Source: an uncultured bacterium
GTDB lineage: Bacteria; Patescibacteriota; Gracilibacteria; Absconditabacterales; Absconditicoccaceae
Length of the DNA: 64,000 nt
Direction: 5' to 3'
Assembly: GCA_947168725.1 (NCBI GenBank)
Contig: CAMVNA010000002.1
Span: 82,712 to 146,711 of the forward strand
This document shows, piece after piece, positions 58,628-63,173 of the stretch. A program made the position numbers and the translations under genes. The notes beneath the pieces are model-generated. The model saw only the letters and a list, made by a program, of their open reading frames with translations. It was not told the origin of the DNA and ran no database searches. How positions within the stretch are numbered: the first letter of the stretch is position 1; each line of letters starts with the position of its first letter.

Positions 58628-58655
58628 TTGACTTTTTTATCCATTTTTGTATATT
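58628..58655 (+). promoter_or_regulatory. sigma70-type promoter for the interrupted tRNA
   Basis: TTGACT - 16 nt - TATATT. Confidence 0.65.
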
Positions 58656-58705
58656 CAACTAGCTATCAGTATCCGCACAATGAAGTGCTAATGATAGATG
58701 TTATT

Positions 58706-58918
58706 GGAATCTTAGCTCAACTGAATAGAGCGTCCTACTTATACGATTCGGTACGTTATCCGGAAACGCACCAATAAACAAGTGTTGCATCAGACATTGC
58801 AAGTCATGCCAGGCACAAAAGGCAAAGACACAGTGTAAATCAATCGCTTAGGATAGTAGCTTCCTAGCAAACTTGGAATCGGGTGGGAAGGTTCTCGGTT
58901 TGAATCCGGGAGATTCCA
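58706..58918 (+). tRNA. interrupted tRNA gene (possibly Arg or Ile) with ~140-nt insert in the anticodon loop; identity unresolved
   Basis: Acceptor GGAATCT/AGATTCC, U8-A9, D arm GCTC-AACTGAATA-GAGC, anticodon stem TCCTA/TGGGA, variable loop AGGTT, T arm CTCGG-TTTGAAT-CCGGG; insert about 58740-58881. Confidence 0.75.
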
Positions 58919-58926
58919 CAAAATTG

Positions 58927-58953
58927 AGCGAAGTTTATAAACTTCGCTTTTTT
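58927..58953. terminator. intrinsic terminator
   Basis: AGCGAAGTTTATAAACTTCGCT + TTTTTC. Confidence 0.8.
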
Positions 58954-58966
58954 CTTTACAAAAAAT

Positions 58967-60007
58967 TTAAAACACCAAAACAACTTCTGGCTGCAAATCA
59001 ACTCAGAATTTATCTTTTACAGATTTTTGAATATAATTCATCGCTTCTAAAACATCATCAGCATTTCATCATTCATTTACCAAAATCAAAGCATGTTTTT
59101 CATAAGTTCATGCTGTTCAGTTTGGAATTCTCCGTCACTTCAAACCACAACGATCAATTAACTGCCCTGCTGAAAGTTTCACCTTCTTTTCTCAAAAATC
59201 TATACATTCATGATGAGATAAATCTGGAAATCTTTTCTCCAATTCCACCCACTCATCAAGAGCAATAATTGGATTAGAAAAGAAACTTCATGCTGTTCAA
59301 ATTTCATGCCAATCTGGAAGTTTGTTCGCTCTAATTTCACGAACTAATTCCATAACTTCAATTGGCTTTTTTGGCTCAATTCACTTTTCTCCAATAAGTT
59401 TTTGAATATCTGCATATCATAAATTGGGACCATAATCCTCATCTACAACAGATAATAAAAATCTAACCTTTGTTACCAAAAATGATTCCTTTAAAGAATG
59501 TTTAAAAACACTTGTTCTATAAGCAAATTCACATTCAGATTTTTTGAAAATCTTTTTTTCTCATGTAGTCAAATCTATTCATTCAACCTCATAAATTACA
59601 TTAGAAACCTCCATCCCATAAGCTCAAATATTAGAAACTGGAGCCGTACCTACATTTCATGGAATATCTATCAAATTTTCTATACCACAATAATTATTTT
59701 CACAACATCGCTCAACAAAATCTGACCAATTTTCTCCCGAATCTACTTCAATTAAAACAGAATTATTTTCAGATTTTACTATTTTTTTTCATTTCATTTC
59801 AATTTTAACTACAATTCCATCAAAATCATGCGTAAATAAAATATTTGCTCAACCATTTAAAAGACAATGCTTCTCGTCTTTCCATAAATCAGATTTCATA
59901 AGATCAAAAACATCAGACTCCTGTCCTACTCTAACTAAATATTTAGTCTTCACTGGAATTTGTAATGTATTATATTGTAACAAATCTACATCTTTTTCTA
60001 TTTGCAT
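58967..60007 (-). CDS. murB: UDP-N-acetylmuramate dehydrogenase
   Basis: ...NTLQIPVKTKYLVRVG...LLNGGANILFTHDFDGIVVKI...[31 protein letters not shown]...AYRTSVFK...GTAGSFFSNPII...LSAGQLIDRCGLKG. Confidence 0.93.
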
Positions 60008-60072
60008 TAGATACATTATGGAACTAAATACCTCAAAATAAAATATATCAATTATTCACATGTTTTCAAATT

Positions 60073-61385: not shown

Positions 61386-63173
61386 ATGCCAGATAATAAC
61401 AATAAAAATACGGAGAACATCACGAACCATGAAACACAAAAAAAACGTTCATTTTTTTGATGAGAAATAAATTCAAAAACAAAAGATTTGTTAGATTTTC
61501 GTTACAACACACAAGAAGAAATTGATAAATTAAATGAAGAAATGACAACTACCGACGACTTAGATGAAATTATGAAACAAACTAACAACTCTGAATACAT
61601 TGAAAACATAGATATAGATGATAAAAACGGAGAACTATCTGAAATAGAAGATAAAGAAGAAATTGAACCTGATTCAGAAGAAAATTCACAGCCAATCAGT
61701 GATTCATTAAATAATGAAGAAAATAACAATCTCGAAGAACTCGATGAAAATAAAAATGAACCTATTGAATGAGAAGTCATAGAAAATCTAGAGAATGATA
61801 AGGAAGATATCAAAGATAAAAATAAAATCGAAGAAAAAAATGACATAGACACATCGTTTTGAGAAACTGAAGAATACCAAGAAAATGAAACTCAAAAAGA
61901 AGATAATGAAAATAAATTTAAAAACGATGAGAAAGATGAAAGTATCACTAACAAGCAAATGAAAAAAGAAGAAAGCGAATCTAAAAATGATGATAAAATA
62001 AATGAAGATTCTCAAAACGAAAACAAAAATAATATTGAAGAATCAGAATGATGAGATCCATTAAACTTCTTTTTTGACCCTTTTGAAGCAGATTTAGATG
62101 AAGATGAAGAAGATTATGAAGAAGAAAGTGAAAAAGAAAATAAAAAAGAAAGTGAAGAAGAATATGAAGATGAGAATGAAGATAAAAATGAAAAAGAAAA
62201 TGAGGAGAAAAGTAAAGAAGATGATGAAAGTGAAGAAGAAATTGATGAAGAAAATAATGATGAAAATGATGATGAAAATGATGATGAAGGTGATGATGAA
62301 GGTGAAGAAAAAAATGAAGATGAAAGTGAAGATGAAAATGATGATGAGCATGATGATGAAAATGATGATGAGCATGATGATGAAAATGGAGATGAAAATG
62401 ATGATGAGAATGATGATGAAAATGATGATGAAAATGAAGAAGACAATGAGAAGAAAAATGAAGAAGAAAATGAAAGTGAAAGTGTCACAAATACTCCTGT
62501 ATCTGTCAATCCATATCAAGAAGATAAAAATCAAAAATTTATTGAAGATAAAAAAAACAAAATAAATTCAACTACATGAAAAATAGTCACAGAAGAAGAA
62601 ATCCAATTAGAACAATGACAAGATATGCCTGACAATGAAGATGACGAAGAATATCAACCAAGCTCAGAAGAAATATTCGAACAAGAGCCAGAATTTTTTG
62701 CAAATGATGAACTTAGCCAACAGTTTATGCATCTAGTACAAAACGTTCGTTGAATATTCAAACTTGAACATAAAGGCAAAGAACAAGATCCGTACTTTAA
62801 AATTTTATGATGAAAAACAGAAAATTCTACTCTTGAATATCTATTCTACCTAATAGAAGAAGAAAATGAGCCTATTGATTTATATATCAAAAAAGTAGAA
62901 ACAGACAATGAAAATAATGAAAATGAACATCTTGTTCAATTCTCATACAATGAAGATCAAGAACTAACCATATTTGTAGACGAAATAATATTATATGAAA
63001 AAATAAATAAATTTGATTCTGATTTGCCAGAATATAACGACACAAGAGCAATACTCGAAAAATTTATATTCTTAACTGAAAATCATTACAATAAGACAAA
63101 ATCAGAACTAGAAAAACAACGTCAAGAAAGACAGAAAAAAAAGCAATTACAACAAATTTTTAAAGGGTTTTAG
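61386..63173 (+). CDS. acidic low-complexity protein (595 aa)
   Basis: Continuous with UGA=Gly; Asp/Glu/Asn-rich centre, more ordered C-terminal ~180 aa. Confidence 0.75.
62094..62480 (+). repeat. GA(T/A)GA-rich degenerate repeat encoding DDENDDEN-type acidic tract
   Basis: Reiterated GATGATGAAAAT and variants. Confidence 0.85.

Follow-up and report, generated by a model that had tools for sequence, protein, structure and literature searches.

A tRNA-like gene with a structured anticodon-loop insert in an Absconditabacteria-type bacterium, and similarly altered genes in its relatives

The tRNA-like gene and its flanking sites

The DNA under study, referred to as the window, is a stretch of 64,000 nt from contig C2 (CAMVNA010000002.1) of an uncultured member of the Absconditicoccaceae. 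Its forward strand carries at 58706-58918 a gene with all the stems of a transfer RNA (tRNA) and a long structured insert in the anticodon loop, which is called the window gene here. Unless a locus is named, positions are those of the window. The genome of the window is denoted G000 (17 contigs, including C1, C2 and C3; estimated completeness 91%), its relatives bear other G numbers and the loci within them L numbers. The gene and its flanking sites, all on the plus strand, are made up as follows.

58628-58655 (+): sigma-70-like promoter, TTGACT-16-TATATT, inside the box AAAAAAGTGTTGA
58663-58697 (+): 5' leader hairpin CTATCA/TGATAG with inner GCAC/GTGC, seen in the sequence
58706-58918 (+): whole tRNA-like RNA, 213 nt including A73 (strict scan, ARAGORN in intron mode, constrained fold)
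58706-58712 (+): acceptor stem, 5' strand GGAATCT (scan, fold)
58715-58731 (+): D arm GCTC-AACTGAATA-GAGC with G18 A19 A20 (scan, fold; identical to the D arm of the tRNA-Arg(UCG) of relative G034)
58733-58737 (+): anticodon stem, 5' strand TCCTA (fold; one compensatory pair against G034)
58738-58740 (+): C32 U33 U34 of the ancestral loop (fold, with the pairs C32-G38 and U33-G37; comparison with the G034 loop CTTCGGA)
58741-58879 (+): structured insert, 139 nt, which for an ancestral UCG anticodon lies between U34 and C35 (comparison with G034, folding)
58744-58881 (+): closing helix CGATTC (58744-58749) / GAATCG (58876-58881), with C35 and G36 included (sequence, fold)
58880-58883 (+): C35 G36 G37 G38 of the ancestral loop (comparison with G034)
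58884-58888 (+): anticodon stem, 3' strand TGGGA (fold; one G-U in the stem)
58889-58893 (+): variable loop AGGTT (sequence)
58894-58910 (+): T arm CTCGG-TTTGAAT-CCGGG, with U56 matching A19 (scan, fold)
58911-58918 (+): acceptor stem, 3' strand AGATTCC (58911-58917), and discriminator A73 (58918); CCA is not encoded (sequence, fold)
58926-58953 (+): predicted intrinsic terminator GAGCGAAG/CTTCGCTTTTTT; the opposite strand also has a weaker predicted site

A preliminary description had proposed that the cloverleaf is complete only when about 140 nt are removed. The loop region 58738-58883 measures 146 nt, that is 7 + 139, and the cloverleaf closes only without the 139 nt; all the stems described were present in the sequence. 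The gene has a 7-bp acceptor stem, a D arm, a 5-bp anticodon stem, a 5-bp T arm and canonical spacing. Its D loop carries G18A19 in place of the usual G18G19, and its T loop U56 in place of C56. The elbow contacts are present, with G18 and an A19-U56 pair replacing G19-C56, and the same is true of the tRNA of G034.

In a strict whole-genome scan, the window gene was the only insert-bearing tRNA of the 1.07-Mb genome. None turned up in eight Markov genomes matched to it in size and dinucleotide content. ARAGORN with introns allowed also called the gene, and its two other matches merely joined neighbouring ordinary tRNAs. The gene was unreported by plain ARAGORN, which misses all the interrupted or shortened tRNA-like genes described here, those of the relatives included, and it scored below the Rfam tRNA gathering cut-off.

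Folding was more stable than that of dinucleotide shuffles, with z-scores of -3.6 for the whole RNA and -3.0 for the insert alone. When the cloverleaf was imposed, the energy was -63.2 kcal/mol, compared with an unconstrained minimum of -63.7 kcal/mol (a gap of 0.5 kcal/mol). In the predicted fold, C32-G38 and U33-G37 are paired, a UAUA bulge comes next, and the closing helix that follows holds C35 and G36; consequently, this fold contains no anticodon loop. A 7-nt anticodon loop with U33 is thus absent from the unspliced RNA, where 146 nt lie between the two anticodon-stem strands.

The promoter, leader hairpin and terminator that had been proposed as the gene's own were all found as sites. 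A promoter scan taken alone did not exceed chance (3 matches, with 2.5 expected), and the promoter box recurs in two genus-mates, as described below.

Origin of the tRNA body and the genetic code of the host

Over positions 8-63, the nearest tRNA was an intact tRNA-Arg(UCG) in G034, which belongs to another genus of the family (91% identity, E 7.5e-17; L032 1494-1568, loop CTTCGGA, A20, A73). The assignment to Arg rests on these positions, since naming by the nearest body without the anticodon arm was ambiguous (Ala 44/57, Arg 43/57). Seven double compensatory changes separate the two genes among 21 stem pairs; none of the pairs is broken in the window gene, and the G034 gene has one mismatch, in the T stem. 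Position 38 is G in the former and A in the latter. With the G034 loop as template, the insert falls between U34 and C35. On these comparisons the window gene probably descends from a tRNA-Arg(UCG), whose codons CGA and CGG are read by tRNA-Trp in this lineage. Among the anticodons considered in the preliminary description (UCG, UAU or UAG), UCG is therefore favoured by the nearest tRNA. A need for an Ile(UAU) tRNA is an unlikely explanation, as shown by the tRNA set below.

In G000, UGA is read as Gly and CGA/CGG as Trp, the latter meaning being taken from alignments. In isoleucyl-tRNA synthetase (IleRS) the motif RNRYWG appears as RNRYxG, where x is CGA or CGG. In PKD repeats, x occupies the Trp position of WDFGDG, and in one repeat protein SFSGWINNCG and SFSGxINNCG stand side by side. 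Such a code has been reported for Absconditabacteria (PMC8629427). The two codons occur 1061 times, spread over 365 of the 472 non-overlapping open reading frames (ORFs) of at least 250 codons. Since they mean Trp, decoding by a mature tRNA-Arg(UCG) would be wrong at about 1000 codons.

The genome contains an intact UCG tRNA that has G73 and a Trp-like anticodon arm, as does an intact CCG tRNA (G000:C1:135416-135488 and C3:28443-28515). Judged by these features, both are probably the Trp tRNAs for the reassigned CGA and CGG.

A seemingly missing Pro tRNA and the third CAU tRNA were both found to be cut by contig ends; it is the latter case that makes a need for Ile(UAU) unlikely. The Tyr, Ala, Arg(UCU) and Glu(CUC) tRNAs are probably located in an assembly gap beyond the start of C1, because in relatives the Tyr-Ala-Arg(UCU)-Glu cluster adjoins tRNA(UCA), and the tRNA(UCA) of G000 stands at the start of C1. 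The missing tRNAs that were tested thus sit at contig ends, and decoding does not seem to depend on the window gene. For the same reason, widespread tRNA introns as the cause of missing tRNAs were left unsupported.

Analogous genes in related genomes

Several relatives carry tRNA-like genes with an altered anticodon arm. Their positions are given below, together with the MurB-like gene that neighbours the window gene.

L127 2382-2553 and 2087-2238 (-): genes A and B of genus-mate G005, tRNA-like with structured anticodon-arm inserts, between macB and murB
L128 1023-1198: gene A of genus-mate G004, tRNA-like with a structured anticodon-arm insert, beside murB
L191 511-692 (-) and L192 856-1036 (-): tRNA-like gene shared by G030 and G038 (genus g14), insert of about 108 nt
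L152 1498-1566 and L185 329-397 (-): two identical tRNA-like genes of genus-mate G003 in a shortened form, with a 4-bp anticodon stem, the loop AACTTTC and no U33
58967-60061 (-): MurB-like gene near the window gene

The promoter box, with its 16-nt spacing, is common to the window gene and to gene A of both G005 and G004. Between these two genomes gene A is 71% identical, with the acceptor and the T arm unchanged, and its insert helices show six double changes and no broken pair. U33 is missing from gene A and no 7-nt loop can be restored. G004 is almost complete (61 overlapping stretches; 1,068,910 bases counted with overlaps) and contains this one insert-bearing gene together with 31 ordinary tRNAs.

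The gene shared by G030 and G038 is neighboured in both genomes by the gene of a conserved 368-aa protein. Four double changes and no broken pair were counted in the insert helices, and in the closing helix three double changes fall within seven pairs. No U33 is available for restoring a loop. The stretch CCAAAACAATA is common to gene B of G005 (B127) and to the G030/G038 gene. The Rfam tRNA model accepted B127 and the G030 gene, leaving 117 nt of the latter in the loop. When 50 family genomes were searched with a covariance model of the G030/G038 insert, no additional member scored convincingly.

The shortened form in G003 was likewise accepted by the Rfam tRNA model. Both copies are flanked by similar promoter-like and terminator-like sequence, like a duplicated cassette. 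Since the nearest tRNA types differ among the analogous genes (Glu-like for A, Met-like for B, Lys-like for the G003 form), no single amino acid is implied. The window gene is grouped with the extended- or shortened-anticodon-arm genes of the family by architecture, not by insert sequence.

Three further loci were set aside. The scan matches at L113 and L102 were read as tandem ordinary tRNAs, and L159 1495-1734 (G070) proved to be a partial duplicate of tRNA-Thr. In the latter, a 5' part of tRNA-Thr(GGU) occurs a second time, some 160 nt upstream of the intact copy, an arrangement that mobile-element integration could leave.

Two observations concern the neighbourhood of the window gene. Outside the genus, the matches of the MurB-like gene among the scanned genomes were mostly from Bacteroidetes/Flavobacteriales, possibly the result of horizontal transfer. 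Further downstream, 61386-63173 holds an ORF of 595 aa with a very long Glu/Asp/Asn-rich stretch.

A proposed non-decoding RNA and its alternatives

It is considered fairly probable that the window gene makes an independently transcribed, unspliced tRNA-like RNA that does not decode. Its transcription and the absence of splicing are inferred. Together, the acceptor stem, D arm and T arm would fold into the usual L-shaped elbow, so that ordinary tRNA enzymes could mature the 5' and 3' ends. The anticodon loop would be replaced by a long structured extension carrying the RNA's own function. This function may be structural or regulatory, as in pseudo-tRNAs like tRNA-Other of Bacillus cereus. The window gene looks repurposed rather than awaiting splicing, given that anticodon arms are similarly disrupted in other tRNA-like genes of its relatives. 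The preliminary description had left the choice between a novel intron and an unspliced mimic. The mimic is supported by relatives whose loops cannot be restored, by the Trp meaning of the codons and by a normal tRNA set that apparently can do without the gene, and the intron has become the less likely of the two.

tRNA-Other is the nearest concept among known systems. It is a pseudo-tRNA said not to function in translation and has been proposed to be the tRNA-like element of a larger regulatory RNA (PMC3399842). It is likewise tRNA-derived and reported to act outside translation. The window gene differs from it in having its anticodon loop replaced by a structured extension and in belonging to a different phylum, and no sequence link between the two has been shown. 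With respect to interrupted tRNAs in Absconditabacteria, no report was found in literature that was mainly available without subscription.

Several observations weigh against this explanation. U33, U34, C35, G36 and G37 are unchanged from the intact relative, and precise splicing would restore them. G034 retains an intact Arg-type UCG tRNA (L032 1494-1568) though its CGA also looks like Trp, which weakens the case for a tRNA retired for misreading. The window gene is tied to the analogous genes by architecture, locus and promoter only, and the permissive Rfam tRNA model takes the G030 gene and B127 but not the window gene. The insert matches nothing, which leaves no internal covariation, and its structure is supported by folding energy only. 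As for the relatives, the compared helices were chosen by eye in two sequences each, so that the counts of double changes support the structures without being an unbiased test.

The insert had no homologue, second copy or sign of a mobile origin in its own genome, in 99 relatives or in phage or plasmid records, and viral contigs scanned for tRNA motifs gave nothing. The lack of a homologue agrees with the alternative that the gene is a dead tRNA-Arg(UCG) broken by an unrelated structured element and has no present function. Its single copy and the T-stem mismatch of the G034 copy point in the same direction, and the loss of this tRNA would be tolerated or even favoured because its codons are reassigned. 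Against it, all 21 stem pairs are intact after seven double changes, G38 suits the extended helix, and the promoter-like and terminator-like sites are intact. In addition, conserved and covarying genes of the same plan exist in other genomes, and the insert has no second copy. This account is rated unlikely, and it could apply only to the window copy.

A functional tRNA-Arg(UCG), or one with UAU, interrupted by a new class of tRNA intron that is self-spliced or cut by an unknown bacterial enzyme, is judged distinctly improbable. The exon loop begins with CTTCGG exactly as in the intact G034 homologue, the exon stems are all perfect and ARAGORN calls the gene in intron mode. Group I introns are known to insert between positions 34 and 35 in tRNA-Leu. 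However, known group I tRNA introns measure about 200 nt or more, and 139 nt falls below this length. The hypothetical splice junction (58740 to 58880) would read CUACUU followed by CGGGUGGGA, and the C32-G38 and U33-G37 pairs would give a poor anticodon loop. At the 34/35 junction the last base of the insert is U rather than G, and neither a convincing 5'-exon guide helix nor a P7-like core was seen by eye. Moreover, the product would be a tRNA that misreads Trp codons, and the analogous G030/G038 genes have no U33 to restore.

The searches and the predicted fold agreed with the earlier statement that the insert seems unlike a typical group I intron and fits neither group II ends nor a clear bulge-helix-bulge (BHB). 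Among all Rfam families, group I (RF00028) and group II included, no match reached the gathering score and nothing meaningful appeared at E up to 10. No group I intron exceeded the cut-off in G000 or in 50 family genomes. Below the threshold, group I matches at L134, L135, L136, L137, L140, L141 and L142 had no tRNA at the match, and at L138 and L143 tRNAs were present but away from it. The match at L134 1500-1740 (G047) scored 40.7 bits over 239 nt, and its surroundings contain no tRNA genes. The predicted fold has no BHB at the exon borders, its bulge being on one strand only. With an Escherichia coli query, no RtcB ligase was found in the genome, itself 91% complete; a splicing endonuclease was not searched for.

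According to a review of tRNA gene diversity, the structure of bacterial tRNA genes is uniform, group I and group II introns being its sole significant departure (PMC4033280). The group I-containing genes share with the window gene a structured insert in the anticodon loop, but the present insert is shorter, without an RF00028 match, a visible P7-like core or a 3' G at 34/35. Archaeal and eukaryotic BHB introns are also short inserts beside the anticodon; here, in contrast, the bulge is one-stranded, no RtcB was found and the host is a bacterium.

A divergent transfer-messenger RNA (tmRNA) or bacterial Y RNA (YrlA), each of which couples a tRNA-like part to another structured part, is very unlikely, because a separate standard tmRNA above the Rfam cut-off (G000:C3:74442-74815) and SmpB are present and no TROVE/Ro protein was found in G000, G003, G004, G005, G030 or G038. 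tmRNA (RF00023) resembles the window gene in its tRNA-like ends around a long structured part. The window gene differs from it by a true D stem and anticodon stem and by the lack of G3-U70, and no tag reading frame common to the inserts was seen by eye. YrlA is a tRNA mimic fused to another module and is alike in that respect, whereas the genomes examined here lack its protein partner.

Taken more broadly, and tentatively, Absconditabacteria-type bacteria may possess a class of non-decoding tRNA-like RNAs with scaffold or regulatory roles, whose anticodon loops are replaced by lineage-specific structured extensions, one of these tRNAs having been freed when CGA/CGG passed from Arg to Trp. Well-formed tRNA-like genes without a usable anticodon occur in several genomes of the family. 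Should these RNAs be spliced instead, they would represent a new type of bacterial tRNA intron. Should they prove stable and unspliced, they would show the fate of a tRNA after codon reassignment and would provide a set of RNAs, open to testing, in which the tRNA elbow serves a purpose outside decoding.
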